A DNA stretch of 64,000 bases from Cocleimonas flava (GTDB lineage Bacteria; Pseudomonadota; Gammaproteobacteria; Thiotrichales; Thiotrichaceae). The position numbers and the translations under genes were made by a program. The number at the start of each line of letters is the position of its first letter. Position 1 is the stretch's first letter. Where the stretch lies: contig NZ_SMFQ01000004.1 of assembly GCF_004339015.1 (NCBI RefSeq), positions 929,901-993,900 of the forward strand. Direction: 5' to 3'. Below, in pieces: positions 4,672 through 54,800 of the stretch. The notes under the pieces are model-generated. The model saw only the letters and a program-made list of their open reading frames with translations, was not told where the DNA came from and did no database searches.

Positions 4672-7600
4672 TTACATTGGGTCACTCCAATAAATGGACT
4701 CTATAGCTTCAACATCCATAGTGCCGACTTCGGTACTCTTTTTACCAATTCGAATATCAACTTCGTGAGAACATTCTCCGTTTTCACAGCTTAATTCATT
4801 GAATACACGCTGAGGCGTTCCTGGGATTTCACTGGCAGATATTGTCTGGAAAACATCATTATCATTAATCACTCCGTTTCCATCCATATCTATACTGGCT
4901 TCACCGGTTAACAGATTCATTGCGTAAATACGCCCCTGAGTTGCCGGAGCAGCACAAGAGTTTATTAACTCACCTGTTGTTAAAACCTTAGGTACTAATG
5001 TAGTGAAAGTGATTGACCCTTCAAAGGTAATTGCAGGTGCCAATACTTTTTCGCCAGATTCAAAGAAATTCACATACCAACCGAGTTTATCGGTCTCTGT
5101 AATCTGCTTACCTTCAAAATCTGAATCCTGTGTAATGCTTTTGGTAAGAGTGGTTCCTGTACCCACAACATCAATTTCAACTTTTGCCAAATCAGAAAGT
5201 TGGATTGGGGTGAAATCATCATCCAACTTATTTAATGGCGATTTATCCAGAATCACAAACATATGATCATTTATTTCTTCATTCATTGGATGAGGTCTCA
5301 TTCCACTTCCAACTGAAACCGTAAACATTGTTTTACCGTTTGATCTGAATGAAGCTACATCTGGCTCATTATAAAACTTACGAGCCGCGGAAGATCCTGC
5401 CGTCCCTAAATCAGCCAACTTGGTTAGTTTAAAGTCTTCAGCATTATTTGATAACGACTCTGTTAGGAAATCAAGTCGCCAAACGCTACCTCCTGTATCT
5501 GCAAAATACATTCGATCAAGGATGTTATTTTTATTTACATCAAGAATTCTTGCGCCACCAGGGAAAGCCTGAGTTACTTTCGCTCCAAGTGTTTCACGCA
5601 TCGACCAAAGTTTATCTCCGGTCTTTGCATCGACAATATAAATATCATCACCCATCGTTGGCGTTTTAGAGATCACGACATCAGCTGGCTCATAATCCTC
5701 GTCATAATCAAGAACAGGATCATTTCCGCCTGCAATAATGACTGCTTCTTTTTTAACGGCACTGCTACCAGAGCCTACTAGAACGTTCGCTAAGTAAGGC
5801 ATCGACCAGCTTTGTCCCATTCGGCTAAACTGACTGTCATCACCGTCAATTTTCCAAAGCATTGTTGGCGTTTGCCCTTTGTGAATATTACTCACATCCA
5901 AGGCATAATATGATTTACCACCGCGACGAAGTCCAAAGTATAAATATACCTTTTCACCTGAATCTACTTCACCATTTGGGTTATCCGGATCATCTTCGTG
6001 CCAGTAACTTATATTGCCATCAATTCCATATTTATGAGGACCTTGTCCGGTGAATTGTGGCTCTATATTTTTTAATAATTCCTTTGGCATAAAGGCAAAT
6101 ATTTCTTCACCAGATGTACTATCAAACACATGTAAATAGCCTTCGTTGGTCGCAGAGAATATATACTGTTTTTTCGCCGCATCGTCTGTAGATTTTTTGT
6201 AGGTAATGATTACAGGTTCGGTATGCAGCATATCTCCCATATGTTTACGCGCAACTCCATGAGGCGTTGCATTACTGTCAAACTGACCATTTTTCCAGCC
6301 ACGAATAAACTGGATTAGCTGAGCGCGGTAAGCTGCTGCTTCAACGGTATTCAAATTTAATTCATCTTTATCGAATAACATTTCCTCAGTGATACCGGTA
6401 TTAGCTACATTGATCTCAGATAATGTATTGCCTGAGACATTCGAATACAGATTACGTATAGCAGGGTTCGTTAACAAACTTGCTGTTCCACCTTGCTGTA
6501 CCACATCACCATCAGGGATTGCGCTTGTTGACCACAAGTCCCAGGCTTCATCTTTAAATAAGCCTAATTCAGTCATGGCACTCGTTAAACCACCATTTCC
6601 ATCTTTACCTTTAATGATTCGGCTATCACCAACATCGTCCAATTTAAACTTCTTTAAGTTACCCGCCCAACGTGAAGAACTGGATTTATCAAATACCGGA
6701 ATGTAAATATCATCTTCATGCTCCAGACCACTTTTCACATTTACACTGTAACCGGGAGATGCTTGAGAACGTGCCTCTTCCGCTATTTCATCTAATGCCT
6801 GTGAAAAGGCATCCGCAAGTTCAGCTTCATTAGTCGCCGAGAAATAACCTTCTTTTTTAGCCGTCTCAGGATCATCTTCCAACGTCACCAGACTTTGTAA
6901 GTATTCTGAGGCTTCAGGTGTAATACCTTCAGAGAAACCAATAACATAAGTATGCAAGAATTGATCTCCATTGACGTTTGGCTGATTATCATGAGTCGCC
7001 AGATATTGCGTTAAATCTGCTCCACAACGCCCACTTCTGAAGCCATGCGTAATGTCACAACTAGATTTGTTTATTAGGCTTTTTACTCTACTATATGAAT
7101 AAGGATCTCGATTTACGCCATTCGAGTATTCCGGCTTGCCATCAGACATCAAAATCATGAAGCTACTCTGACAACCATCTTTCATGGGTGATTCATACTT
7201 AGGTTTTGGTAATGGCGAATCTTTACAAATCGCATAGTAACAAGATGAATTTGTGATAGTGCCATAATCATTGTCTTTACAATATTTACCCGTTGTCGAA
7301 CAACCTGTAGGGTTACCATCTTCATCCGTACCGGTACATGTTGTGGTTCCACCAACCCACGAACTTCTGCATCCCCAATATGACTCAGTCTTACAATTAT
7401 ATTCAGTACCTGCACAATTAGAGGCTAAACCAGGTCCAGACGGATTAAAGCGATCAGCTGGGCATATTTTCCCCCATGTTTCTCCTGCTCTCCAGTCAGC
7501 TATACTATCGTTCCAAACTCTGTATCCAGAAGGTGATGCATCACATGAACCTGAGTCATTCTTTTGATTAACGGGCTCTCCTGCGTAGGTTGAAGGATGT

Positions 7601-8760
7601 GCTGCCCACGTGTAATTTTTTCTCGCATAATCATAACCGTAGTCGACTTCTTCACCTCGGAAATACTGTGACGCTTCATACAAAGCATCAACGATAGGAG
7701 TCATTCCTTTTGCTTCCCAGTCATCGGCAATTTCACTTAAAAAAGTTCTAACCGTGACCGTATCGCTTGGCTCTGGAATATTACTGTAATCCCAACGAAC
7801 TGTTCCATTAAGCATCATTGAGTCTTCTATGATGGGTCTTGCGAGACTGGTAACAGCAGTAATAGGAAACTTAATCCCGTTAGGATAATTTTTTCGCCAG
7901 TTTGAGTTATCACCATAATTCATGATACCTACGCTAAGGTTATCTGGAGCATTCGTCAAAACTGTTCTCAATGCATCCTGCATTACCTGCATACGTGTTT
8001 TCTTACCGGTAACTTCTTCATACGTTATCGTCAATACTGGCGCATCTGAACCATCACCGTTATCTCTTGATTTGGGATTTCTTTCTCCGTAACCAGAAAT
8101 GACAAACACCATCGCATCATTAGGGTCCCAATCACCTCTATCGACAACCAATTGAACCAGACTTTTCAAATCTGGTGTTTGTTGTGCCGCCCCACTCTCA
8201 CCAACAACCCATGGATCAACGGACCAGGAGACTGATGTACCATAAAGCGTTCTGTTTGAAATATTGGTAAGATTATTTTCAAAAGCAGATGGGTTATCAT
8301 GGTTTTGAATTTTAATATCTAACGTAGTAGAGGAAGAACTAGAGTTGCTAGCCGTAAACTGTATAAACGCAGAATCAATTTTTGCACCTTTGGGTATATC
8401 TAAATCCCTAAAGCGTAACCCAACTTTTTGAGTAAATAATCCATCTTTAGTCATTTCTAGAATATTGCCACTATGAGCTGTTCCCCTCAGGCTTGGAAAA
8501 TTATGCTCATCAGCATCTTCGTTTTTATCTATGATGGCACTAGAAACTGTAGTCTTCTCTCCGACGGCAGAGGTTCCATCAACCTCTTCTTTCATACTGC
8601 CCGAGTTATCCATAATAAATAATACGTTATTATTTATTTCACTTTCCGTGTAGAAAACTTCGGTATCATCAGCATACGAGAACCCCATTAGCGCCAGCAT
8701 TGTTATGCCCAATGCACTTATAAAATAAGTTTTTTTCATATTATCTAGATAAATTTTCAT
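4672..8760 (-). CDS. pilY1: PilY1-like type IV pilus tip adhesin, copy 1
   Basis: PilY1 proteins are exported, prime pilus assembly with the minor pilins, and act as adhesin and surface sensor at the pilus tip. The 1362-residue protein has a signal peptide (about 8-30, ending FSYA), then a von Willebrand A-like opening with a MIDAS DNSGS at 51-55. A beta-sandwich-like module (about 90-255) interrupts the VWA domain, which continues with MILMSDGKPEYSN and a Cys-rich insertion near residues 400-520. The C-terminal half is the PilY1 beta-propeller: SATNEGYLHVFDSTSGEE, FGLRRGGKSYYALDVSN, and the calcium-type loop DVNKNNILDRMYFADTGG. A second Asp-rich loop (DMDGNGVINDNDVF) lies near the end. It is last in pilV-pilW-pilX-pilY1. 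Expected in the outer membrane or at the pilus tip. Confidence 0.93.
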   Translation of the reverse strand: MKIYLDNMKKTYFISALGITMLALMGFSYADDTEVFYTESEINNNVLFIMDNSGSMKEEVDGTSAVGEKTTVSSAIIDKNEDADEHNFPSLRGTAHSGNILEMTKDGLFTQKVGLRFRDLDIPKGAKIDSAFIQFTASNSSSSSTTLDIKIQNHDNPSAFENNLTNISNRTLYGTSVSWSVDPWVVGESGAAQQTPDLKSLVQLVVDRGDWDPNDAMVFVISGYGERNPKSRDNGDGSDAPVLTITYEEVTGKKTRMQVMQDALRTVLTNAPDNLSVGIMNYGDNSNWRKNYPNGIKFPITAVTSLARPIIEDSMMLNGTVRWDYSNIPEPSDTVTVRTFLSEIADDWEAKGMTPIVDALYEASQYFRGEEVDYGYDYARKNYTWAAHPSTYAGEPVNQKNDSGSCDASPSGYRVWNDSIADWRAGETWGKICPADRFNPSGPGLASNCAGTEYNCKTESYWGCRSSWVGGTTTCTGTDEDGNPTGCSTTGKYCKDNDYGTITNSSCYYAICKDSPLPKPKYESPMKDGCQSSFMILMSDGKPEYSNGVNRDPYSYSRVKSLINKSSCDITHGFRSGRCGADLTQYLATHDNQPNVNGDQFLHTYVIGFSEGITPEASEYLQSLVTLEDDPETAKKEGYFSATNEAELADAFSQALDEIAEEARSQASPGYSVNVKSGLEHEDDIYIPVFDKSSSSRWAGNLKKFKLDDVGDSRIIKGKDGNGGLTSAMTELGLFKDEAWDLWSTSAIPDGDVVQQGGTASLLTNPAIRNLYSNVSGNTLSEINVANTGITEEMLFDKDELNLNTVEAAAYRAQLIQFIRGWKNGQFDSNATPHGVARKHMGDMLHTEPVIITYKKSTDDAAKKQYIFSATNEGYLHVFDSTSGEEIFAFMPKELLKNIEPQFTGQGPHKYGIDGNISYWHEDDPDNPNGEVDSGEKVYLYFGLRRGGKSYYALDVSNIHKGQTPTMLWKIDGDDSQFSRMGQSWSMPYLANVLVGSGSSAVKKEAVIIAGGNDPVLDYDEDYEPADVVISKTPTMGDDIYIVDAKTGDKLWSMRETLGAKVTQAFPGGARILDVNKNNILDRMYFADTGGSVWRLDFLTESLSNNAEDFKLTKLADLGTAGSSAARKFYNEPDVASFRSNGKTMFTVSVGSGMRPHPMNEEINDHMFVILDKSPLNKLDDDFTPIQLSDLAKVEIDVVGTGTTLTKSITQDSDFEGKQITETDKLGWYVNFFESGEKVLAPAITFEGSITFTTLVPKVLTTGELINSCAAPATQGRIYAMNLLTGEASIDMDGNGVINDNDVFQTISASEIPGTPQRVFNELSCENGECSHEVDIRIGKKSTEVGTMDVEAIESIYWSDPM

Positions 8761-8828
8761 AACGATCAGTACTCAAAATTATTTTCATTGTTTATTTGTA
8801 TTGAATTCACTTTTCTAACGTCAAACGC

Positions 8829-9380
8829 TTAGAGATAACTTCCTTTACTTTTTGAATTAGGCACCATTTTTCCTGCACCTCTGTGATGTTGATCTCTAAC
8901 CGATTTATTTTTATCGCTTGTTTTTCTTATTTGAAAATCATAGAGCCTACAATTAGGAACACCCGGACCAATACTAGAACCCACACCATCTCTTAAACAG
9001 GCATATAGCTCTTCTAAATCGGTAATAATTTCTACAGTCCCAGAAGGCGCTCCAGCAAAACTGAATGTATTATCATCAGTCTCTACACCGTTAACTTTGC
9101 CACCGCCATTTCCAAAAGTAAGTCCTGCATCCTGTCTTTCCAGTGGCGTAATCAACTTAGTTGTTGCGGTAAAATCAGTTAATTCATTTTCTGTTTCGTG
9201 AAAAATGGACATTTGCTGATGGTCGTTACCCGCCACTAAAATATCAAGCACAGAAATTTTTGTTGCAGAGACCGTAATGATTGTCATCAACGTAAGAAAC
9301 ACCAGTGCGGTAAACAGCGTTGCACCCTGTTGTTTTTTCAAAGAATTTAATGACTTGTTATTTTGATTAATTACCAGCAT
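8829..9380 (-). CDS. pilX: PilX-like type IV pilus minor pilin, copy 1
   Basis: A 183-residue protein with a PilX-type N-terminus: a short charged leader, then QQGATLFTALVFLTLMTI, where G19-A20 resembles the prepilin peptidase site and about 20 hydrophobic residues follow. PilX helps form the priming complex with PilV, PilW and PilY1. The reading frame overlaps the end of pilW by 14 bp, indicating translational coupling, and pilY1 follows 68 bp later. The C-terminal part ends in DQHHRGAGKMVPNSKSKGSYL, similar to copy 2. Confidence 0.85.
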   Translation of the reverse strand: MLVINQNNKSLNSLKKQQGATLFTALVFLTLMTIITVSATKISVLDILVAGNDHQQMSIFHETENELTDFTATTKLITPLERQDAGLTFGNGGGKVNGVETDDNTFSFAGAPSGTVEIITDLEELYACLRDGVGSSIGPGVPNCRLYDFQIRKTSDKNKSVRDQHHRGAGKMVPNSKSKGSYL

Positions 9381-10371
9381 TTAATATCCTCCCTGAGCTT
9401 TTATTAGCTAGGTAAACCGTTGTTGTATAAACACGAAACAAACGGCGTAAATCATTACTAGAAATGTTTACTTTTTTATCCAGCACATTATAAAAGGTGA
9501 CCGAGCTATCTTCTTTCAATAAGTTATCATTTGAAGATCTTAGTAGAAGCCCAACCTGAACACTCACTACACTTTCCCACTCACCTCTATCTTCAACTTT
9601 TCCGGCTCGTTGATAATTAATCGAACCGTCATCACGTTGGACACCATAAAGAAACTGAATAGACTCTACATTTTCAATAATAGGTTGAGTTCCTCCACGA
9701 CTTCCGTGACAAAATAAAACTCTGTCGTCATCAACACTAGAAGTGTTCCTTACAACACGAAAAGTACTGTAAATTTTGGCATCTGATGGTTGAAAAGGAG
9801 GAGCAATGCCATTCACTGGATCTGCACTACACGCTACTGCGCGTTGATCTCGTAATGTTCCTCCGCCTGTACAATCAAAATAAACTAAGGCACGCGAATT
9901 ATAATTTGCGGGGGAATTTGTACATTCTGTAACACCTGAAATACAGGGGTTATCCGCTAATGCTGCAACAGTAATTAAATCACTTGCGCCATCTCTGGTT
10001 TTTCTATTCCATGACGGTTGTTGATTTTCTAATGTGACGCCATTTCTGCAAACGGGATTATCCAAAGGACCATCTGCATCAGTGTAAAAAGGCTTATCAA
10101 TAATTTTGCTGTGTATCGAAGGGTACCCGGCATGCATAATAGTTTTTCGCATCAACTCTAGTGCAGATCTTGCATTTCCGTCCATCTCACTAATCGCATC
10201 ACGCATGCGATCACTGTCTTTAGTTCCAACAAAGTTTGTCACTACGCCAGCTAACAGAAATAGGCCGATAACCATAGAAACAAGCAATTCAACCATGGAT
10301 AAGCCCGACTGAGCCTGCAAGCCCGACTTACCTTTAAATAGACTAGAATTATTTTTTATTATTTTTTGCAT
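9367..10371 (-). CDS. pilW: PilW-like type IV pilus minor pilin, copy 1
   Basis: A 334-residue minor pilin. After a short leader, SGLSMVELLVSMVIGLFLLA is the class III signal with Glu at +5 and the N-terminal hydrophobic helix; GTKDSDRMRDAISEMDGNA and LFRVYTTTVYLAN are shared with copy 2. PilW joins PilV, PilX and PilY1 in the complex that primes pilus assembly in the inner membrane. Only 1 bp separates it from pilV. Several Cys residues (VCRNG, NPCISGVTEC, CTGGG) suggest disulfides in the periplasmic part. Confidence 0.9.
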   Translation of the reverse strand: MQKIIKNNSSLFKGKSGLQAQSGLSMVELLVSMVIGLFLLAGVVTNFVGTKDSDRMRDAISEMDGNARSALELMRKTIMHAGYPSIHSKIIDKPFYTDADGPLDNPVCRNGVTLENQQPSWNRKTRDGASDLITVAALADNPCISGVTECTNSPANYNSRALVYFDCTGGGTLRDQRAVACSADPVNGIAPPFQPSDAKIYSTFRVVRNTSSVDDDRVLFCHGSRGGTQPIIENVESIQFLYGVQRDDGSINYQRAGKVEDRGEWESVVSVQVGLLLRSSNDNLLKEDSSVTFYNVLDKKVNISSNDLRRLFRVYTTTVYLANKSSGRILNAGN

Positions 10372-10372
10372 T

Positions 10373-10897
10373 TTAGTTCGGCCTCACCACTATAGAAACT
10401 GATGACCTTTCTTCTTCACCCCCTAAATCTTCATGCGCTTTAGATTCAGTCCATTCAATCGTTATATTGTGATCAACATTCGGAGTTGCACAACCACCGT
10501 CACAAGCAATTTCTAATGTTCCGGCAGGCAATGTATTAACGACTCCACCAACACGTTTTGAACCTTTCCTTACTCCGCACATGACATCCTGGATATCAAA
10601 TCGTGCTGTTTCTGCAGGGGTACAATAAGTGTTACCGCGACATTGTTTTTGCAATGTATTGCAATTAACCGCAGACTCATAAAAACCACCTGCAGCACCC
10701 AAGCGGTTCACACGCATTCGTCCACCAAGTTCTGATGCGAGAATACTTGCCATTGTTCTAGAGTGGGCATTATTTAGCCCTTTGATCGATGCAACCTGCA
10801 TACCACTTAGGCCTAGTAATCCTATCCCAATAACAATCAGGCTAACCATTACTTCTATTAGTGAAAAGCCACGTTGTGGCCGTGCCAATCTGTTCAT
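10373..10897 (-). CDS. pilV: PilV-like type IV pilus minor pilin, copy 1
   Basis: A 174-residue prepilin-like protein beginning MNRLARPQRGFSLIEVMVSL: a basic leader, cleavage before Phe after Gly, Glu at +5 and a hydrophobic helix ending near residue 31. GIGLLGLSGMQVASIKGLNN and the run of paired cysteines are typical of PilV. First gene of the copy 1 operon; the 41-bp repeat array lies upstream. No FimU or FimT gene is next to it in this window. Confidence 0.9.
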   Translation of the reverse strand: MNRLARPQRGFSLIEVMVSLIVIGIGLLGLSGMQVASIKGLNNAHSRTMASILASELGGRMRVNRLGAAGGFYESAVNCNTLQKQCRGNTYCTPAETARFDIQDVMCGVRKGSKRVGGVVNTLPAGTLEIACDGGCATPNVDHNITIEWTESKAHEDLGGEEERSSVSIVVRPN

Positions 10898-11090
10898 AGC
10901 TTAAATCGCTTATTTTTATTATTAGTAAGTCCTATACGAGGACTCATTTGACATTATTTTTATTTATGTCAACCAGATTAACTTATTATGCGAGAAAAGC
11001 AATTTTTTAAGACAATCGGTAAATAAAAAACTACCTTTCGTCAATTTTAAATTGGCAAGAGAAAAAGATAAAAAAGATAAAAAAGAGCTT

Positions 11091-11228
11091 ATAAGTGGGG
11101 AGGTGCCCAATTGCGAATCGAAAAAGGCCTTGTAAGTAGGGGGGTGCCTAATAGCCTATAGAAAAAAGGCCTGTAAGTTGGGGGGTGCCTAGTAGCCTAT
11201 AGAAAAAAGGCCTGTAAGTTGGGGGGTG
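11091..11228 (+). repeat. Tandem array of four 41-bp units carrying the dispersed motif
   Basis: Four motif cores start at 11091, 11132, 11173 and 11214, exactly 41 bp apart. The core in the last three is GTAAGTAGGGGGGTG or GTAAGTTGGGGGGTG; the first is degenerate (ATAAGTGGGGAGGTG). Between cores the units share a segment with GCCTATAG and A6-GGCCT. Read on the minus strand each unit gives AGGC, a 16-nt loop and GCCT followed by T5-T6, a weak terminator-like shape. Confidence 0.9.
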
Positions 11229-11262
11229 TCAATCAAATAACAACAGCATTGATTTCAAACAA

Positions 11263-11290
11263 AAAAGGTCATCGTTAACGATGACCTTTT
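11263..11290. terminator. Perfect 28-bp palindromic terminator after the DUF4124 gene
   Basis: AAAAGGTCATCGTT followed by its exact complement AACGATGACCTTTT. T-runs flank it on both strands, so it can stop transcription from the DUF4124 gene and also from the other direction. Confidence 0.85.
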
Positions 11291-11317
11291 ATTATTTTTT
11301 TTAGTTATTTATTTTAG

Positions 11318-11821
11318 TTATTCTTTTTTAGTTCTACTTTCAACGTATTTAACATTCTCTAACTCATTGGGTGAACTGTTATTAGCTGATTCAGTATTGT
11401 TTTGAGATGCCGTACTTGTGTTGTTCGTTTCTTTTGACTGACTTGTTGTGGAAGCGGTATCTGCATTTGTTCCAGAACTAGAATTTTGATTGCTGCCACC
11501 TCCACCAGTAGTGCTGGCTTCAGCTTTAGCATTTTCACTTTGTTTGCTGTCTATTTCTCTACTGGAATCATCACCAATCATTATACCTTTACTTCCCTCT
11601 TCTGGAGCATCCGGTACAAATTTGGGCGGCACATAACCATCAACGGGATCTTTAGCCGCCTTCATTTCTTTTTCTATGCTGGTAACGGGGCAAGGCTTAT
11701 CATTGTAATAAACCTTACCTTCTGTATTAACGCATTTATAGATTTTTGCTTGCGCCTCCATAGACAACAATAGAGGGGAAAATAACAGCATGCTTATTGT
11801 TAGTTTAATTTTCTTATTCAT
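11318..11821 (-). CDS. DUF4124-domain secreted protein at end of pil operon copy 2
   Basis: A 167-residue protein from the ATG at 11821. The signal peptide (about 1-25) ends SMEAQA, followed by the DUF4124 signature KIYKCVNTEGKVYYNDKPCP with two cysteines (about 26-46), then a Pro/Glu linker and a low-complexity Ser/Thr/Asn tail (about 90-160). DUF4124 proteins are small periplasmic proteins of unknown function in proteobacteria. It follows pilY1 copy 2 by 63 bp, the position held by pilY2 in Pseudomonas, but I see no clear PilY2 similarity. An upstream GTG/ATG extension would bury the signal peptide. Confidence 0.8.
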   Translation of the reverse strand: MNKKIKLTISMLLFSPLLLSMEAQAKIYKCVNTEGKVYYNDKPCPVTSIEKEMKAAKDPVDGYVPPKFVPDAPEEGSKGIMIGDDSSREIDSKQSENAKAEASTTGGGGSNQNSSSGTNADTASTTSQSKETNNTSTASQNNTESANNSSPNELENVKYVESRTKKE

Positions 11822-11884
11822 AGTTATTTCTCTATTTTTCTTAATATGCCTAGCTATCAATTTGTTATCTATTCATCTAGTGCT

Positions 11885-14800
11885 TTATTGATCACTAACA
11901 GGATCACTCCAATAAACAGACTCCAATCTACATGCGTCGTAGCCCGTCGCTTGAGAAAGCTTCTTACCAATTCGAATGTCTACTGGATGAGTACATACTC
12001 CAGCGACCACATCTAAAGGATTAAAAATGGTTTGAGGCTTTCCAGGGATTTCACCTTTCGCCACAGTGATGTATATATCATTATCGGTTATTGAGTCAGG
12101 ATTATATGGATCAGACGTATCTGAATCATCGTCTCCACTTCCATCTAGATCTATTCCAGGCTCTCCAGTCAGCAAATTGATCGCATAGAATCTACCCTGA
12201 GTTGCTGGGGCAGCACATTGATCGATACCCACTCCCGATGTTAAAACTTCAGGAACCAGTGTTGTAAATGTGATGACACCGTCAAAGGTAACTGCTGTCG
12301 CTAGTACTTTTTCACCCGAATCAGGCAAATGCACTAACCAACCATCAGATTCAGCTAATGTTCCCGTTTGGGTTACACCCGATTCATCTATTGTTATTCT
12401 AGCCAGGGTACTTGTTAATATTGTATTGTAATTATCTTCATCCAACTTACTAAATGGAGACCTATCAAGTACCACATAGAATTTATCATCAATCGTTTTA
12501 TCCAACGGATGTGCTCTAAATCCACTACCAATAGATACTGCAAATACCGTCTTACCTTTTAGCTTTAACGCTGAAACATCAGGCTCATTAAAGAACTTTC
12601 TTCCACCATCTCCGAGTTCTGCTAATTTAGTGATAGTTGACTCTTCATCAGATGAACCAATTGCTTCACTAAGATCGACTCTCCATAAGTTGCCGCCTGT
12701 ATCACCAAAATACATACGATCGATAAATTGATTGTAATTCGTATCGAGTATGCGAATACCGCCTGGAACGCTGTTAACTAATGGATTAGAAACAGCACTA
12801 CTTAACTTCCATAAAGGTGCGCCACCGTTAATTGCATCGATAATGAAAATATCATTACCTTCGTTTGCGGTAACTGATGATTTTGCGTCATCGACTAATT
12901 GAGTGTTAGGTATATTTCTGTCTTCATCTGGATCATAACCACCACTGATGATAACGACTTCCTTACAGTTCTCGCGTCCATTCACACAGGTTGATCCGTC
13001 TACTCCTACTCTTGCTAAGTATGGGGGTGACCATGATTGTCCTAACAAACCATAACCCGTGTCTTCTGAGTTCACTTTCCATAATAGTTTAGGCGCATTT
13101 ATATTCGTGACATCAAGTGCGTAGTAAGAATTTCCACCACGACGTAAGCCAAAATAAAGAATAACCTGATCACTACCTACATCAACAACGCCATCTTCAT
13201 CAACATCGTTAAACCAGTAGGTAATACTTCCATCTACACCGTATTTATGATCTTCGGCGGTTCCTTCATTTAAATATTGTGATTCCGTGATTGTTTTAAG
13301 CAACTCACTAGGAATAAAAGCAAACATCTCTTTTCCAGCATTTGAGCCCGTATCTGCAGTATCAAACGCATGCAAATAACCTTCATTAGTACCAGCAAAA
13401 ATATATTGCTTTTTGACACCATTCTCTCCGCTGTTATAAGTGATAACGAGAGGCTCAGAATGAAGCATATCTCCCATATGATAACGGGCTTCAGTATTTG
13501 GCTCTCCGAGTTCCCAGCCACGCATGAAGTTAACCAGTTTCTTACGGTATGCAACAGTAGAGGTTGGGGATATACCCAATACATCATTTGTAATGTTGGC
13601 TATATTTCCTTCAGTCAATTGATTACTAGCTGTTGAGATATCATTGCTCACAATATCAGAATAAACATTTCTTTCTGATGGATCTAACAAGTTTGCTAAA
13701 CCACCTTTTTGCACCAACTTTCCATCAGGAGTTGCCGCAGGGCTTTCAGACCAATAATCCAAGGCATTTGTTGTAAAGCCACCAAGCTCGTCAACTGCCT
13801 CTGCACCATTACTACCTTTGATTTTACGAAGGCCGTCTTCATCGACAATTTTGAATTTTTTAAGGTTACCTGCCCATCTTGATGAATTTTTGCGATCAAA
13901 AACAGGGATATAAATATCCTTTTCATGCTCTAAACCACTTTTAACATTCACACTATAACCTGGTGATGCCAAAGTACCTTTAGGTGCTGCAACTGCAGCC
14001 AAAATGTTTTTAAATGCATTTGCCAACGCTTCTGGGCTTGATGCTTCAAAATACCCATCATCTTCTGTTCCTGGAATACCGTCATCATAAGTGGCTAATG
14101 ATTTCAAATATGTCTCAGTACTTGTTCCCGCTCCTGTTCCGAAACCAATCGTAAATGTTTCAATGTATTGATTGCCTTCTTGGCCATTAGGAAATGAACC
14201 CGTTGGATCAGGTAAATTATCATGGGTTGCTATATATTGCGTAATCTCTGCACCACATTTACCGGCATTACCTGCTCCTTGAGGCGAAGCACATGCACCT
14301 ATGGCAGAAGCCAGAGTTCCCTGAGGTCCTTTAGAGGTTCCTCGGATAGAAGCAAAAGGCCCTTCATTAGTAGTTTGAGAATTATTGTAACTAACTCTAT
14401 ATGTAGGAGCTCCATCGGTCATTAATACGATATAGTTTTCCTGACAACTACTTTCAATTGGAGAAATATACTTCTGTGCATTTGATGATGTTACGTCTCT
14501 CGCAACATATCTAATATCTTTAGTTACGACATCTCCAGAATAGGTTGTTGGGTGTGCTCCGTTGATGTACGGGGAGTTCTGACCATAATGCATGGTCTCG
14601 CCACGATAATACAAAGCAGCTTCATAAAGTGCATCCACAATAGGCGTAAATGAATTTTCATTCCAGCTATCCGCAATATCAGCAACATACTCACGAACTG
14701 TTTTATTTTCATCAGGGAAACTAGGCAAACCATAAACATCAGAATTAGAAGTTATAACATCTCTTGCTTTTGCATTGATATCTGTAACAGGAAACGCAAT

Positions 14801-15679
14801 ACCCGAAACCGAATTATGTCTTTTATTTTGAGGGTTATAGATACTCAATCCTTCCTGACCATAATTCATCAAACCAATTTTAACATTGTCTGGTGCTTCT
14901 TCTAAAACGGTGCGTAATGACTCTTTCATTACATCTATTTTTTTCTTGTAGGAAGAACCATCTGTATATTCAACATGTAATTCTGGAACTGTTCCAAAAT
15001 TATCATCGAAGGTGAATACTGACCGAGAACCACCTGAAACATTATATAAGAAAAATGATACGCCATTGTTTTGTTGCCAGCCATTTCTATCAACAACCTC
15101 CTGCAACACACTCATTACGTCAACTCTTTGATCCTCAGTCCTGTCACCTGCAGCCCAATCTTCCCTTATCTCCCAATCATAACCACGATTGAAATTACCA
15201 CTAAAATAATTTCCGTCTGAGGAAGGCGAGTTATTTGTGTCGTCACTGTAAACTCTCACAGTAACATCGCCAGAAGTGGTTGCTGCTGATTCAAATTGGA
15301 TATAAGCATCAGTGATATTAGCGTCTTGTGGTATACCTAAATTATCAAATCTGAAACGACTTAAATTATATTGGCTAAAGGTAATAGAATTCTGATTTGT
15401 AACGACATTAGAATTGCTTCCATTTTGAGAACCATCTTCTACTGAACTTTTTATTTGACTCGTAACCGCAGTCCCTGGGCCCGATGATACTTCTATCGTG
15501 CCACTCATACTGCCGGAAACATCTAACACAAACAGCAAATTAGGCTTAGAAACATTGACCGAATAAAAAACTTCAGTATCTTCTGCGTAGGTGGTTATAC
15601 AAGATGCGAGCATCGACAGGGATAATGCTGTTTTAATTGCCGTGCTGATTTTATTCGTTAATTTGTTCATAATTTTCAT
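11885..15679 (-). CDS. pilY1: PilY1-like type IV pilus tip adhesin, copy 2
   Basis: A 1264-residue paralogue of the 4672-8760 protein with the same architecture: N-terminal signal, VWA start with MIDAS DVSGS at 53-57, inserted beta-sandwich-like module (about 75-235), the rest of VWA with YIVLMTDGAPTYR, then a conserved segment beginning GYSVNVKSGLEHEKDIYIPV, and the C-terminal propeller with FAGTNEGYLHAFDTAD and the loop DTNYNQFIDRMYFGDTGG. The long Cys-rich insertion of copy 1 is missing. The signal peptide contains LASC (24-27), which fits a lipobox, so this copy may be a lipoprotein; cleavage after TTYA is the alternative. A degenerate copy of the dispersed motif lies inside it at 13015-13031. 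Confidence 0.93.
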   Translation of the reverse strand: MKIMNKLTNKISTAIKTALSLSMLASCITTYAEDTEVFYSVNVSKPNLLFVLDVSGSMSGTIEVSSGPGTAVTSQIKSSVEDGSQNGSNSNVVTNQNSITFSQYNLSRFRFDNLGIPQDANITDAYIQFESAATTSGDVTVRVYSDDTNNSPSSDGNYFSGNFNRGYDWEIREDWAAGDRTEDQRVDVMSVLQEVVDRNGWQQNNGVSFFLYNVSGGSRSVFTFDDNFGTVPELHVEYTDGSSYKKKIDVMKESLRTVLEEAPDNVKIGLMNYGQEGLSIYNPQNKRHNSVSGIAFPVTDINAKARDVITSNSDVYGLPSFPDENKTVREYVADIADSWNENSFTPIVDALYEAALYYRGETMHYGQNSPYINGAHPTTYSGDVVTKDIRYVARDVTSSNAQKYISPIESSCQENYIVLMTDGAPTYRVSYNNSQTTNEGPFASIRGTSKGPQGTLASAIGACASPQGAGNAGKCGAEITQYIATHDNLPDPTGSFPNGQEGNQYIETFTIGFGTGAGTSTETYLKSLATYDDGIPGTEDDGYFEASSPEALANAFKNILAAVAAPKGTLASPGYSVNVKSGLEHEKDIYIPVFDRKNSSRWAGNLKKFKIVDEDGLRKIKGSNGAEAVDELGGFTTNALDYWSESPAATPDGKLVQKGGLANLLDPSERNVYSDIVSNDISTASNQLTEGNIANITNDVLGISPTSTVAYRKKLVNFMRGWELGEPNTEARYHMGDMLHSEPLVITYNSGENGVKKQYIFAGTNEGYLHAFDTADTGSNAGKEMFAFIPSELLKTITESQYLNEGTAEDHKYGVDGSITYWFNDVDEDGVVDVGSDQVILYFGLRRGGNSYYALDVTNINAPKLLWKVNSEDTGYGLLGQSWSPPYLARVGVDGSTCVNGRENCKEVVIISGGYDPDEDRNIPNTQLVDDAKSSVTANEGNDIFIIDAINGGAPLWKLSSAVSNPLVNSVPGGIRILDTNYNQFIDRMYFGDTGGNLWRVDLSEAIGSSDEESTITKLAELGDGGRKFFNEPDVSALKLKGKTVFAVSIGSGFRAHPLDKTIDDKFYVVLDRSPFSKLDEDNYNTILTSTLARITIDESGVTQTGTLAESDGWLVHLPDSGEKVLATAVTFDGVITFTTLVPEVLTSGVGIDQCAAPATQGRFYAINLLTGEPGIDLDGSGDDDSDTSDPYNPDSITDNDIYITVAKGEIPGKPQTIFNPLDVVAGVCTHPVDIRIGKKLSQATGYDACRLESVYWSDPVSDQ
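13015..13031 (+). repeat. Near-match to dispersed motif inside pilY1 copy 2
   Basis: CTAAGTATGGGGGTGAC differs from the consensus by one base in the G-run (AT in place of AG). In the pilY1 frame it encodes part of SPPYLAR. It may be a decayed copy or chance; the matching TGAC flank favours relation. Confidence 0.4.
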
Positions 15680-15742
15680 CCCCTAGGGATTAGGTTATTT
15701 TTATTAATTTGGTCTATATCTAAAATGTATTGAGTCGTTATC

Positions 15743-16255
15743 TTACAAGTAGCTGTTTTTATTCGCGTTAGGTTTTTCTTTTCCAGCTCCGCGATTGTGG
15801 CGATCTTTTACTCCAGAATTGGATGCTCTTTGTCTAACTTGAAAATCATATAAATCACAAGGAGCAACATCAGGACCAATGCTTACTGCCTGACCTTCAA
15901 AGCCACCACATGTATACCTTTTAAAAGTATCTCGGATCTCTCTTTCAACACCATGATCGCCTGCCTTAGCTGGCACCGAGAAAATACCAGTAGTGGCATT
16001 AAATTCTTCTCCTGGTGTTTCATGAATCATTGGCACCATTAACTCTTCTACTCTTGTGAGTTTCTTTAATTCATTTTCAGTATCTTGAAAATTCCGCATT
16101 TGCTGTTGATTATTGCCTGCAACAAGTAAGTCTAATAAAGATACTTTCGTTGCCGAAACACTTACCACGGTCATTAATGCCAAAAAAACCAGCGATGTAA
16201 ATAATGTCGCACCGCGCTGCTGGTGAGATAGTTTTAAGTTATTCTTCGTGATCAT
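15743..16255 (-). CDS. pilX: PilX-like type IV pilus minor pilin, copy 2
   Basis: A 170-residue protein with HQQRGATLFTSLVFLALMTV as signal and helix, VSATKVSLLDLLVAGNNQQQ after it, and a C-terminus (DRHNRGAGKEKPNANKNSYL) clearly related to the copy 1 protein. The start overlaps the pilW stop by 4 bp (ATGA type), so the two are translationally coupled. It feeds into pilY1 63 bp downstream. Confidence 0.87.
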   Translation of the reverse strand: MITKNNLKLSHQQRGATLFTSLVFLALMTVVSVSATKVSLLDLLVAGNNQQQMRNFQDTENELKKLTRVEELMVPMIHETPGEEFNATTGIFSVPAKAGDHGVEREIRDTFKRYTCGGFEGQAVSIGPDVAPCDLYDFQVRQRASNSGVKDRHNRGAGKEKPNANKNSYL

Positions 16256-17238
16256 AGGAGAGCTCCAGTATCAACATTCTCTAAATTTATGGTTGTCGTA
16301 TATATTTTAAATAATCGACGTAAATCATCGTTTGCAATAGTCACGGGTTCTTTTAATAACCTATACGTATTTTTTGTGCTTGGTTGCTTCAATAAATATT
16401 GATTTTCTGAACGCATCAGCAACCCAACCTGAACACTTCTTACCATGCCCCATTGGTCATCATCTTCAACCTGGTTAGCTGTTCGGTATGATGTGTTTCC
16501 ATTTTCCTGACGTACGCCATATAAAAATTGCATCGCCTCGACATTATCTGCAATTCTTTTTGTATCAATATGACCTGAGGTTCTGCTTCCTTCGCAATAC
16601 AAACCTCTATCTCGAGTTGGCACATTCGGATTTCTAATTATTCTAAAGGTGCTGTATATTTTCGCCTGGGTAGGGTCCGGCATACCCACATCTGGGTCAG
16701 TACTGCAATAAACTGCTCTTGTATCTCGAATTGTCGCTTCGCCACCATTACCCAAACAATCTGTATAATGTAAGGCGGCTGGATTAACATCTGCCATATT
16801 TGGGCAACTAGTCGCACCGTCACGACATGGGTTATCAGCCAATGAAACAACCGTTATTCTATCTTGCACATTGATGTCTCTGGTTCTTCTATTAAAAGCA
16901 GGTGTCCAGCGGTTAGGTTTTGATCCATTTCTACAAATATTTTCGTTCGTCAATACGCCATCTGATGCCGTGTAAAAAGGCTTATCAAGACGAATATTTT
17001 CCATGGAAGAGTATCCAGCATGAGAGATTGTCGTTCTCAAAACTGTAAGCGCTTCATTTGCATTAGCATCCATATTACTAATTGCATCACGCATATGATC
17101 GGCATCTTTAGTACCAAGAAAATTAGTTACTACGCCTGCCAACAGAAATAATCCAACCACCATTGATATCATCAACTCTATCAGCGACAAACCCGTCTGA
17201 TGATAAGCTGTGTTTTTAAATTGTTTATGTTTCATCAC
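16252..17238 (-). CDS. pilW: PilW-like type IV pilus minor pilin, copy 2
   Basis: A 328-residue minor pilin. TGLSLIELMISMVVGLFLLA is the prepilin signal with Glu at +5 and the helix; GTKDADHMRDAISNMDANA and LFKIYTTTINLEN match copy 1. It is expected in the inner-membrane priming complex with PilV, PilX and PilY1. It lies 24 bp after pilV. Conserved Cys pairs occur at ICRNG, NPCRDGATSC and DCLGNG. Confidence 0.9.
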   Translation of the reverse strand: MMKHKQFKNTAYHQTGLSLIELMISMVVGLFLLAGVVTNFLGTKDADHMRDAISNMDANANEALTVLRTTISHAGYSSMENIRLDKPFYTASDGVLTNENICRNGSKPNRWTPAFNRRTRDINVQDRITVVSLADNPCRDGATSCPNMADVNPAALHYTDCLGNGGEATIRDTRAVYCSTDPDVGMPDPTQAKIYSTFRIIRNPNVPTRDRGLYCEGSRTSGHIDTKRIADNVEAMQFLYGVRQENGNTSYRTANQVEDDDQWGMVRSVQVGLLMRSENQYLLKQPSTKNTYRLLKEPVTIANDDLRRLFKIYTTTINLENVDTGALL

Positions 17239-17262
17239 TAATATTGCAATCCTATTTATGGA

Positions 17263-17808
17263 TTAAGGGATAACCGGTATTGTTATTGTTTGGACTTGAT
17301 CTTCGTCCGGTTGATCTTCATGAGTTTTAGACTCATTCCAGCTAATAGTAATATTGTGCTCAATATTTGCCTGGGAACAAAGGCCAACACAACTTACGTC
17401 GAGAGAGCCATTTGCAAGCAGATTCGCTATACCACCCTCTCTTGTTGCACCCGTTAATGTTCCGCACATGACTTCTTGCGTATCGAATCTTGCTGTTTCT
17501 TGAGGAGTACAATAGGTAGTATTTGCATCTAAAGCGGTGCCGTCACTCTCACACAACTCTTCAACGACATCACAACTCACATCATTATCATAAAAGCCGC
17601 CATCGACACCCAGCTGATTGGCGCGCATCCTTTCGGCAAGTTCAAATGCAAGGTAACTTGCTGTTGTTCTCGAGTGGGCGTTATTCGTCCCTTTCATTGA
17701 TGCAATCTGCAATCCACTAAGACCCAGCATACCTACACCAATGACAATAAGGCTTACTAAAACCTCAATCATTGAAAAGCCTTTAATGCGTGTTCTTGTG
17801 TTTAACAT
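17263..17808 (-). CDS. pilV: PilV-like type IV pilus minor pilin, copy 2
   Basis: A 181-residue prepilin starting MLNTRTRIKGFSMIEVLVSL, with the leader cleaved before Phe after Gly, Glu at +5 and the shared stretch GVGMLGLSGLQIASMKGTNN. First gene of the copy 2 operon pilV-pilW-pilX-pilY1-DUF4124. Upstream is a gene-free region to htpG; its promoter must lie there, but I see no clear sigma-54 TGGCAC-N5-TTGC element. Confidence 0.9.
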   Translation of the reverse strand: MLNTRTRIKGFSMIEVLVSLIVIGVGMLGLSGLQIASMKGTNNAHSRTTASYLAFELAERMRANQLGVDGGFYDNDVSCDVVEELCESDGTALDANTTYCTPQETARFDTQEVMCGTLTGATREGGIANLLANGSLDVSCVGLCSQANIEHNITISWNESKTHEDQPDEDQVQTITIPVIP

Positions 17809-48885: not shown

Positions 48886-51800
48886 TTAGTCAAGTTGCAA
48901 ACCACCTGAATTAATCCATGCTAACCCTGTTTCATTTTCCATCCTAACACCAGAATTTGAACTAGAGATATCTATACTAAACACCTTTTGAGGGTAGTAA
49001 GGTGGCTCGGTGACCTGATAGTCTAATACCCCGTTATATTCCAAATCAAACTCTGAAGTGCCCGCAGGTATAACAAAAGTTCCAGTTTCTATAACAAAGT
49101 CCTGCCCCGCAATTGCAGCTATTGCACTTACTCCAAAAGGTAAAATTTCATCAGAGGTACTCTCACGAATAACATAATCTACCGTAATATCTTCAGTTGA
49201 TTCTTGATTTAAATAAATTTTGAAAGGAGATATAAAAAATGGATAGAACTCGGTATAGCCTGAAACACTCAATGCATAGTCACCTGGAATCGGAGTAGAT
49301 TCACTCGGGCAATCTATGCTGAAACATACCCTAAATTCAGTTTCTGCTGTACCAGCACTTGTTGAAGCCCGAACAAAACCCCTCCAGCTATTATATTCTG
49401 ATTGAAATTCCTCAACAAATGTCAAAGTACCATTGGGACTTAGCTCAAGCCACTCAGGAACTGGACCATTATCGTTTTCAACCAAGCTCCAGTTTGTACT
49501 AGTACCACCGATATTATAAGGATTTAAATCCCAGATCTGACTAGTATCTGGATCAAAAAAACCACCTGGCTCCGAAAATGTGATGTAAATTTGTTCATTA
49601 ATGAATACAGGCAGTTCGGTGTTAGCAGGATCGACGATATTATAATTGATTGTAATACTATCTGTTTCTGTACCCGTAGAATCAGTACCCTGTATAACAA
49701 CACTATAATTACCTGCCGCTGTTGGCACACCAACAATCTCTGCACGTGTAGCATTAATTACATTTAAAGAAAGACCGGTGGGTAAGCTAGGATTTACTAC
49801 ATAATTTACAGACGTTTCAACAGTGGTCGCTGTTAATTGCACACGAGGACTAGCAAAACCTAAAACTCCTTGAACATCTAGCGATTCATTGCTTCCATTT
49901 GCTTCAATATTAAGTGGCCCAAAATCTGGAACAGGTAGATTTATTCCAACTGTCCCGTACTGATCAACTTCCTCACATTGAGTTATCGTGTTTGCTACAG
50001 AGCCGGAGTCATAGGTGAGTTCCGCACTAAAGCAAACCTCACAGTTACTAGGAATATACAATCCATTGGCTGTCTCTCCAATTCTAATTACAGTCTCAAC
50101 GATATTTGGTCTCCAGCCGATATTACAGGATTCACTAGCAACAGCTTTTATTACTGCGGAACCTGATTGAGAGTCGCCTACTTTAACATTAGCTGTACCA
50201 GCTCTCATTGACACATCACAATTCCACCAGGTGAAATGACTTACTGTTGCCTGTAATGCTAATCCAGTTGGGGAAGATGGATCTGATACAACATATCCAA
50301 AACCCTCATCTGCTGATCTAGTTTCAACACTTTCCTGCGTCCATATACCTGTTTGTTCATCAAGTGACCATAAAGGTATTTGATCACCAACTTGAATAGG
50401 ATCTCCATTCTGGTAATTACCAACATATATTGGGATTAATATATCCGCTGTTGCACCTGATTCCTCATCAAGACGAACTTCCTCACCATTCTGAGTGAAT
50501 TTATATTCAACCGTTCCAAAGCTGATAATAGGCGTATCTGTACCGTCTAATTGTGTACCAGTAAACTCTCCCGGAAATGCTGCCAAAGATGCAGGATTAG
50601 ATACATCAACAGGTGTAATCGTGACCTCGATATCACCGGTTACATATTGACCATCTCCAATTACGAAAGAATTAGGTTCGATAGAAACCGAAGCTCCATT
50701 AGCGCCTGTTATCACCCCTCCACTTTCAGCATTAAATCTCTGAACAGCACCCCGTTGAATCATAGTGAAATCAAGACTGATCTGCTCTCCAGCTAACGGT
50801 GCTTTTATAGGAGACACTTGCGTAGCATAACCTTCTTTATTCAGCGTTAACACATACTCCTGATCCGCTGATAACACCATGCTAGCATTTCCACTAGCGT
50901 TTGACTGCTCGGTTCCTGCTGAAGTTGTCACACTTACGTCGCTTACTACAGCACCATCTGCTGTAGTAATTCTGACATTGACTATTGCGTCATCAACATA
51001 ACCTGAAGGTCTAGCTAATTTCTGAGTCCAGTAGTTCGTATATTCAGAATCTGCATTTGCAGCAAACGCTAAACCGACCTCTCTTACATCAGCATTCATC
51101 ATACTTTCACAATGGCCGGTGGTACTAGCTAACCAAGAATCAATCGCTTTTTGGGCTGTATCCCTATTAGTTCCTGCGGTTATATTTTCTGCTAAATTAG
51201 TCCATTGATAATCATAAGTTGCGACTCTTTCTTCTGCACTACTTGGGCCTGGCACTTCCAAATCAGACCCTGTCCAATCAGAAGCAGTACCCGAACCATC
51301 GTGTGAGAAAGTATCACTTATTGCCATATCCTGACTATGCTCGTACGCAGCTCTATAAAGCTTATCACTCCATGTTAGAGGAGAAACTGCAGGATACAAT
51401 ACTTGCTCTTCTCCACAATATTGTGGCTCAGCTCTCGCTGTGTTTATCACAGTTAGATAGTCATCAATCTGCGCCTGGGTAAGTTCAGGTATTACCCGAG
51501 TAGGCTCAGTTATAACAACTCTAAATAGTCGACTAGGCCCTTGGTCAGTATCAACATTCCAAAAACCTACTTCACCATCAAAAGTACCTGCTACTGTAGG
51601 ATCAAATGTTGACTCGCCATATGGTTCGTAATAATAATTGTAATAGTAATCTTCCTCGCTATTATCATAAACAACCCCATTACCATCCCGAATAGTAATT
51701 TCATTTTCTAAAAACGCATGAAATTCATCCGGCGAGGCAAAATCAGTGGTATCAATTGTCAATACAGGTAGGTCGCTCTGAGGGTCTGCACCTTCAAAAC

Positions 51801-54800
51801 TGAAAGCTATTTCAGCGGGAGAATTTGGATCAGCTATAATACTAATAATAACAGTATCACTAGCAGTGGCATTATCATCATCTGTAACTGTTACATCAAT
51901 AGAATAACTGGCACCAATCTCTAAATCACTAGTGTCTAACGAATATGTCGGAGTATCCGACTCTCCACTATGCCAATCATAACTAACTATTTCACCATCT
52001 GGGTCACTTGCAACTGCAGTTAAAGTAATTATTTCACCCCAAATAACTTCCCTATCAGAGCCTGCATTAACCGTTGGCGGCATATTTTCTTCTTCAACTT
52101 CATTTACCGTTATATTAACAATTGCTGTTGATGATGCTGTTCCATCACCAACGGTAAATTCAAAGCTATCATTTCCAAAGAAGTCAGCATTTGGCGTATA
52201 TCTAAGACTAGGGGCATCACCTGTTAAGGAACCATTAGTTGGGGCAACAGAAACGGCATACTCAAGAGGGTCACCATCTACATCAGTTGCTGTTAAAACA
52301 ATTGCATTATTAACCGAATTTTCTTCAACTGTTACTGGTAAAGAATCAGCAACAGGCTCATCATTCACAGAGTTAACAACAATACTTACTGTTGCTTTGG
52401 AACTAGCTTGACCATCAGTGACTGCGAAAGTAAAACTGTCCGTTCCTGAGAAATTTGCCTCAGGTGTGTAAGTAAGGTTAGGTGGCGTTCCTTCTAGAGA
52501 TCCATTAGCTGGTTGTGTTTCAACCGTAAACTCCAATGCTTCAGAATCAACATCAGTTGCATTTAATTCTACTGCATTACCTGACGAATCTTCTTCTAGG
52601 GTGATTGTCTTAGTTTCTGCAACCGGTGCATCATTCACATTATTTACAGTTATTGTCACAGTTGCCGATGAATTAGCAAAACCGTCACTTACGGTGTAAG
52701 TAAAGCTATCTGTGCCAGAAAAATTGGTATTCGGCGTGTAATTAATGCTTGAACCACTTCCAGTAATAGCACCATTTGCAGTGCTGGAAGGATACGAATA
52801 CTGCAATGGATCATTCTCAGCATCTGTTGCATTAAGTGAGATACCATTATTGCTAGAATCTTCCTCGATAGTAATGTTAACCGCAGAAGCAACTGGTGAG
52901 CTGTTGGTGACAACTACGGTTAAATCGCGTGTGATCACTCCATTGTATGGATCAGTTACAGATGCCTCGACAGTGTAAGAACCCGGAGTGTTTGTGTTCA
53001 CACTAGAGGTATTAAAAGAAGCTTCGGTTGAAATTGTGGTTTCTCCATTTCTTACCGATGAATTCCCCTCAAGTAACTGGGTTAATTCCGACACAGAAAT
53101 ATTACGAGGAACAGTAACAGTCGCAGAATTAAAAACTATTTGATAAGGCTGTGGCAGATTAACTGTAACAATCAATGAATCACTTGCTTCAGCGCCATCA
53201 TCATCAGTTACAGTTAGCGTAAGTTCATGAGCACCAATAGAGGTTGGGGTATATACAAATTCATTGGTAGTCGCTAATTCATTGCCTTCAGCATCTGTCC
53301 ACACATAGGATGCAATGCCACCATCAGAGTCAGAAGCTGTGCCTACTAATGTGATTGTTGAGTTAATCAATACCGACGTATCTTCTCCTGCAATGACCGT
53401 CGGAGGTACGTTCTCAGCTTCCTGGACTTGCACTTCACGTGTAACAGGTTCTGCCTCATTATTTGATGAGTCAATTGCTGTGTAGGTTATGATGTAAGTG
53501 CCAGCTTGTGTTGTGTCTAGTTGTGAGTAATCGACGTCGTAGCTTAACTCAGTATCGTAATTATCGGTAATTGTTGCGCCCTGCTCTTCATAGGCTGCAG
53601 GCACCTCACTTGTATCAACTTCTATAACGTGAGGGTTTGCTCCATCAAGTTCTATTTCAGGTGGTGTCGTATCCACGACATTCACTTCTCGCTCAACGAT
53701 TGTTGAGTTTTCAGCAGCATCAGTTGCAGTGTAAGTAAGCGTGTATGTGCCTAACACACCCATGTTTACCTCACCATCGACAATTACATTAACGACTTCA
53801 TCACGATTGTCTGTAGCGGTATATCCTTCATCTCCATAAACGACACCACCACTAGTATCCACTTCAATCTGATCAGGGTTATTACCTAAAAGCGTTAAGG
53901 TTGGAGGTTCATTATCAGTCCCCTCTACAACAATAACTACTCGTGTAGCAGTGGCAGTGTTTCCAGCTATATCCGTTGCTTCATAGGTAACCGTAAACTC
54001 ACCAACCTCTGAGGTGTCGATAATATCTGAACCATCAACAGCAGTTGCTGCCACTTCGCCATCGGTATCATCCAAGGCTGTTGCGCCATCATCATTATAT
54101 TGAGTGCCCACAACGATAGTTAACGGGTTTTGACCTGTTACTAAAATTACTGGTGGTACATTATCAGTTACCTCATCAGTGTTTACCCAATCAGGAAGCT
54201 CGCTCATGTCGCCGCTGTTTGGTGGATTGCGCACACCCAGTGACTTTAGATTACTGGATAAGGCATCTAGAAGGCCGCTTTCCCCTGCTTTAATAGCGAT
54301 GTTATTAAAAACATTAACACCAGAACCATTAAACTGGGCATCATCGGCAAAATCATCTGTTAAAGATTGCAAGTCATCATTATTCGAACCATTAGCTAAA
54401 AAAGCCCCCGTGAATAATAATAGATTGGCATTATCTCTTCTAAAACTGCCATTCCCACGAAGCAAGTCCAGCTGCTCTACTCCACGACTGCTATTGCTAC
54501 TGACACGATTTAAATTAAATAACTGTTTTATCTCTGTTTGAGTGTCACGCCACGCCCTGCTAATGCTTTCCCCATCAGCGACTTGAGCACGAATTCTTGC
54601 AGCAGCCAAATGTGTAAAAAGGTTAATGTTAGCTGTGTCAAAACGACGATCTTTATTTGTGATTACATTTAACGTTATTTCATTACTGCTTTCACTATTA
54701 TTGTACTCATCAAAGTATTGGCCTGTCGCTATTAATTCAGTCCAGCCACTCCATTCAATTCTATCAACCAGAAACTCACCCTGAGTACCCGATATTTGAG

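Follow-up and report, generated by a model that had tools for sequence, protein, structure and literature searches.

On the minus strand of the window, the 64,000-nucleotide stretch of DNA from the marine bacterium Cocleimonas flava analysed here, two complete pilV-pilW-pilX-pilY1 operons are arranged head to tail: set A (17808-11885) and set B (10897-4672). Why does one genome keep two such sets side by side, and have they evolved as two whole units? A first-pass annotation described them as diverged tandem operons that supply alternative pilus tips. All eight open reading frames that it listed are present, in the same order and on the same strand in each set, and all are intact. Its halves of 8.8 and 4.7 kb need correction: set A spans about 5.9 kb, or 6.5 kb if the DUF4124 gene is counted, and set B 6.2 kb. 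At one end the locus is bordered by htpG; at the opposite end are an mscS-like gene, thrS, and infC. Its features are as follows.

17263..17808, minus strand: pilV of set A (TIGR02523, 74.7 bits)
16252..17238, minus strand: pilW of set A (PF16074, E 1.3e-20)
15743..16255, minus strand: pilX of set A, whose C-terminal third tracks PilY1 (motif GKE; PF14341, E 6e-8)
11885..15679, minus strand: pilY1 of set A, 1264 aa (PF05567, 49.3 bits; PDB 3hx6, E 8e-11)
14963..15361, minus strand: DNRLRE/CBM96-like insert of PilY1 A, aa 107-239, after the VWA MIDAS strand (own HMM, E 8e-39; model and fold matches)
11318..11860, minus strand: DUF4124 gene, 3' of pilY1 A (PF13511, 30.6 bits)
11263..11290, minus strand: terminator-like hairpin between sets A and B (12-pair stem, then a T-rich tail)
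11079..11228, no strand assigned: array of a 41-bp repeat between the sets, 3.6 copies, dispersed genome-wide
10373..10897, minus strand: pilV of set B (TIGR02523, 73.7 bits)
9367..10371, minus strand: pilW of set B (PF16074, E 1.6e-17)
8829..9380, minus strand: pilX of set B, whose C-terminal third tracks PilY1 (motif GKM; PF14341, E 4.4e-8)
4672..8760, minus strand: pilY1 of set B, 1362 aa (PF05567, 32.8 bits)
8017..8430, minus strand: DNRLRE/CBM96-like insert of PilY1 B, aa 111-248, after the VWA MIDAS strand (own HMM, E 2e-51; NF033679, E 3.3e-4, below cut-off)

In both sets, the families PilV (TIGR02523), PilW (PF16074), PilX_N (PF14341), and the PilY1 propeller (PF05567) pass their curated cut-offs, which are 52.2 bits for TIGR02523 and 28.1 bits for PF05567. 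Each PilY1 carries the VWA MIDAS motif DxSxS, as DVSGS at aa 53 in A and DNSGS at aa 51 in B; both score below the cut-off of the Pfam VWA_2 model. The landmark NRGAGK, said to be common to the two PilX proteins, is exact in PilX A but reads HRGAGK in PilX B. A complete type IVa pilus (T4aP) tip operon runs FimU/FimT-PilV-W-X-Y1-E, and sets A and B have neither FimU/FimT nor PilE.

The DUF4124 gene and the hairpin between the operons are additions to the first-pass annotation. The hairpin suggests that A and B may be transcribed separately. Promoter-like sites are rarer in the region (33) than in shuffled sequence (41.8), so no promoter is claimed here. The core of the 41-bp repeat (close to CACCCCCCTACTTACAGGGCTTTTTT) occurs at 283 genomic places with at most 3 mismatches; the reversed control has none. 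In the genus, most loci that could be read have the DUF4124 gene next to an A- or B-type pilY1, and none was detected beside pilY1 in the other genera examined. In position the gene is like pilY2 of Pseudomonas.

Pilus genes across the genome

We searched the 4.49 Mb genome that contains the window (G000) for prepilin motifs and read the hits against the surrounding open reading frames. The census comprises 3 PilV, 3 PilW, 1 PilE, 1 FimT-type, 3 major-pilin-like, and 4 GspG-J-like genes; PilX and PilY1 number 3 each, PilM 1, and a separate type II secretion cluster is present. The search for further sets, advised by the first-pass annotation, brought out a complete one beyond that reader's view: set C, a canonical pilV, pilW, pilX, pilY1, and pilE group that adjoins hemA-prfA-prmC, an arrangement common across the family. 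The FimU/PilE partners do lie outside the window, as had been noted; the single pilE is within set C (L052 5756-6304), and the single fimT-type gene is at L054 13918-14466. At L053 6353-10817 there are three consecutive major-pilin-like genes, of which two are almost the same, and after them come two similar membrane proteins (251 and 257 aa).

The single copies of pilM, pilE, and the fimT-type gene, together with the separate type II cluster, argue for one T4aP machine with three alternative tips, which is the simplest reading of this gene content. With three PilV-W-X-Y1 sets for these single genes, sets A and B must therefore borrow their base pilins or do without. The earlier idea of alternative tips remains the best-supported one, but the tips would number three. 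As a full explanation, we consider it probable that A and B form two alternative tip complexes of a single type IVa pilus, beside the standard set C. Roles of such tips in adhesion and sensing would follow by inference.

The closest parallel is Myxococcus xanthus (clusters 1-3; PMC7541494, PMC13190605), where one T4aP machine is likewise served by three minor-pilin/PilY1 sets, PilY1 N-termini are variable and C-termini conserved, and PilX and PilY1 are tightly coupled. There, however, each cluster has its own FimU, whereas A and B are adjacent and carry neither FimU nor PilE. Xylella fastidiosa also has duplicated minor-pilin and PilY1 operons (PilEVWX/FimT/PilY1), and knockouts of the paralogous operons show divergent roles; its sets lie in different genome regions with copies of PilE and FimT, unlike here, and the parts of that report available to us describe no stem/tip mosaic (PMC9956873). 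Multiple tip sets are already known, as are VWA insertions.

Histories of the stem and tip genes

A and B are 56% identical in PilV, 54% in PilW, 47% in PilX, and 48% in PilY1, and either is 27-38% identical to set C; therefore, A and B are sister sets and no chance resemblance. The reported large divergence of the PilY1 N-terminal halves is borne out, with 30-47% identity there against 44-68% in the C-terminal half.

We compared relatives from the Thiotrichaceae, mostly fragmented MAGs, together with an uncultured Cocleimonas; eleven other genomes of the genus were covered. The mscS/thrS locus contains a tandem pair of sets in G004, a single set in G007, and at least one in each of G008, G010, and G006; in G006, the A and B sets are on separate contigs. 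The trees of PilY1, fast trees on fewer rows or columns, separate an A clade from a B clade, both with members from several species, with support of 95-100 in both the N- and C-terminal halves. The 69 columns around the insert, taken by themselves, leave the two clades unseparated. PilY1 A and B are, on these trees, paralogues that split before the genus diversified. That one set might be a recent foreign acquisition from another system, such as type II pseudopilins, had been named as grounds for abandoning the first reading; such an acquisition is rejected by the PilY1 trees and by the shared mscS-thrS locus, where the two PilY1 lineages extend across the genus, and neither set consists of pseudopilins. 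In the plasmid collection, there were only distant PilY1 matches, none of them covering 80% of the query.

Two observations on layout belong here. In G004 (L065 11460-12540), a single pilW is preceded by two adjacent pilV genes and the first set at this locus lacks an upstream pilV, so the locus does rearrange. In other genera of the family, a tandem pilY1 pair behind a single pilVWX recurs (G022, L080 7884-17468; also L100, L102, and L105).

The stem genes have a different history. In the PilV and PilW trees, sets A and B of G000 and the single G007 copy form one clade (support 99/98 and 97/94), and in the PilW tree, A and B of G006 cluster together. Topologies that force an old A clade, or an old B clade, are rejected for PilV (p 0.006 and 0.0125) and for PilW (p 4e-9 and 7e-7). 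Conversely, forcing A, B, and G007 together is rejected for PilY1, with p 3e-45 for the N half and 3e-90 for the C half. Quartet site patterns, counted as favoring paralogue/species/other, tell the same story: against G006, they are 2/13/1 for pilV, 1/20/3 for pilW, and 103/15/16 for pilY1; against G004, they are 0/25/3, 5/32/1, and 57/15/18. The same switch is thus seen against two separate lineages (Fisher p about 1e-18 for G006 and 9e-18 for G004).

The switch falls inside pilX. Over the first 60 residues, PilX A is closer to PilX B from its own genome (60%) than to PilX A of G006 (48%); over the last 54-55 residues, PilX B is closer to PilX B of G006 (64%) than to PilX A (44%). The whole-PilX tree has no clear grouping, and splitting PilX helped for the C-terminus only. 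The split was placed post hoc, after the site counts had been seen, and its p-values are indicative only: for the C-terminus (58 columns), species grouping is rejected at p 0.0057 and grouping of A and B of G006 at p 0.011; the N-terminal part favors species grouping, with paralogue grouping unrejected (p 0.12); and the contrast within PilX has a Fisher p of 0.009 at 16 sites. A PilX motif follows the paralogues, reading GKE in all six A-type and GKM in all four B-type copies readable in the genus.

The A/B pair is therefore a mosaic at the level of sequence and trees: PilV and PilW group by species, PilY1 keeps an older A/B identity, and the switch lies inside pilX. The gene-pair phylogenies proposed earlier do recover old A and B lineages for PilY1 and the PilX C-terminus, but not for PilV and PilW, and the two sister sets did not diverge in parallel as whole units.

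Such a mosaic would match the published division of labor in M. xanthus, with stem pilins uniform per species and PilX-PilY1 tip pairs kept apart. In that bacterium, accumulation of PilY1 requires PilX and not FimU, PilV, or PilW, and PilA is the sole interaction partner found for PilV (PMC7541494); beta-strand complementation between PilX and PilY1 has been predicted (PMC13190605). The species-grouped PilV and PilW and the DNRLRE/CBM96-like insert set A and B apart from the M. xanthus clusters. Several T4aP tips per genome were known, but not how a tip set splits into parts that can be exchanged and parts that are matched. Here the border appears to be drawn by sequence evolution within PilX, between a species-grouped part and a C-terminus that tracks PilY1. 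The border would test, from separate evidence, the PilX-PilY1 coupling that structural models predict, and it indicates to the experimenter where to put junctions in chimeric tips made in laboratory strains. In the literature searched, whose coverage was limited, we found no match for stem and tip genes that are uncoupled, at a point inside pilX, in a tandem pair without its own PilE and FimT, and no direct precedent on Cocleimonas pili, gene conversion with pilY1, or DNRLRE in PilY1.

Routes to the mosaic

Gene conversion between the tandem copies would be the most economical mechanism. It would keep the stem pilins alike within a species, where they may have to fit a shared pilus and would be kept uniform for that reason, and selection would keep each PilX C-terminus matched to its own PilY1. 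In its extended form, this account has a tandem tip locus in which recombination homogenises PilV, PilW, and the PilX N-terminus, around ancient pairs of PilX C-terminus and PilY1 with swappable polysaccharide-binding heads (0 to 3 head domains in the VWA loop); we put the chances of this whole chain at about even.

Turnover between species points to a further process. Between G000 and G007, HtpG and ThrS are 97% identical and the A-type PilV, PilW, PilX, and PilY1 only 56-61%. At fourfold-degenerate sites, identity of the same two genomes is 35% for PilY1 A, close to the 32% expected from composition, against 47% for PilY1 C; five housekeeping genes give 41-55%. Because of the low identity of the A-type genes and the fourfold identity of PilY1 A at expectation, it is likely that, besides conversion, genes were replaced from a relative or different old copies were lost. 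Could the mosaic have arisen with no exchange between A and B, from tip sets replaced horizontally again and again at a hypervariable locus? The turnover figures speak for this, and so do the C half of PilY1 from G007, which clusters with G008 rather than G000, and the Acinetobacter ComC/PilY1 cassette, a one-locus tip cassette exchanged between lineages (PMC10374093). In Acinetobacter, however, whole blocks are replaced, and particular FimU and PilV variants go with a particular ComC variant, whereas here PilV and PilW are uncoupled from PilY1; a block swap would leave PilV, PilW, and PilY1 with one common tree, and their trees differ. We regard horizontal replacement as the whole explanation as doubtful, though it may act on top of conversion.

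The main rival in kind is late duplication: one ancestral pilVWX served two old pilY1 genes, and pilV-pilW, with or without pilX, was duplicated later and separately in each lineage. Layouts of the required sort exist, namely pilVWX-pilY1-pilY1 in G022 and two pilY1 genes behind one pilVWXE in G019, G024, and G035, and the species grouping of PilV and PilW would be accounted for as well. At least three independent duplications are required, however, and the PilX C-terminus already splits A from B across species, which therefore implies two early pilX genes; we judge this history unlikely.

That the second set is merely redundant, a matter of gene dosage or a decaying copy with no distinct role, would fit the single set at the locus in G007, but intact reading frames, a MIDAS motif kept in both PilY1 proteins, and the persistence of A and B PilY1 in several species make this improbable. 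Membership of one set in a type II secretion system or another pseudopilus can be set aside almost entirely: prepilin motifs are common to pseudopilins, but the pilus families pass their cut-offs where the Gsp models fall far below theirs, and the GspG-J-like genes are at another locus.

The domain inserted in the PilY1 VWA

The first-pass annotation missed a domain inserted in both PilY1 proteins, between the first VWA strand, which bears the MIDAS motif, and the next VWA helix. Relatives carry 0 copies (G007; the B-type of G001 and G004), 1, 2 (the A-type of G001 and G004; G005), or 3 (G036), and C-type PilY1 has none. The inserts of the window fall under the curated cut-offs (NF033679, 20.7 against 34 in PilY1 B; CBM96, PF24517, 15.4 against 26). 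One homologous insert, in G036, scores 36.5 and passes the cut-off of NF033679.

Overall confidence is low in the AF2 models of PilY1 A and B (mean pLDDT 49-51), with the insert the better part (block means mostly 60-83). From these weak models, the predicted inserts align to the CBM96 structure 7vbo with Z 8.7 and 9.7 at 12-15% identity and to the chondroitin-sulfate CBM 8wab with Z 10.4 and 10.8, and TGF-beta prodomains match them with similar or higher scores than the CBMs. CBM96 is an alginate-binding module (PMC9971899); unlike that module, the inserts sit inside the VWA of a pilus adhesin. The Acinetobacter ComC finger (vWFa) is likewise an insertion into the VWA domain of a tip adhesin, but it is a Tyr-rich finger there and a whole domain here (PMC10374093). 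In the tree of the inserted domain, support is too weak for inferring movement independent of the hosts.

A carbohydrate-binding role for the predicted CBM96/DNRLRE-like insert is plausible on these models. There is precedent at pilus tips in the lectin minor pilin of S. sanguinis (PMC9934059) and in M. xanthus, where DUF4114 provides a sugar-binding-like domain in two PilY1 proteins. With the domain at the VWA metal-site loop, A and B would be polysaccharide-binding tips of differing specificity, unlike C. Alike stem genes combined with differing tip adhesins that bear a sugar-binding-like domain point to interchangeable pilus tips, and they suggest that pilus adhesins could diversify toward marine polysaccharides.

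Elsewhere in the window, at 48886-54960, a predicted surface protein of 2024 aa has, from its translation only, many repeated Ig-like stretches and a CAP-like segment.
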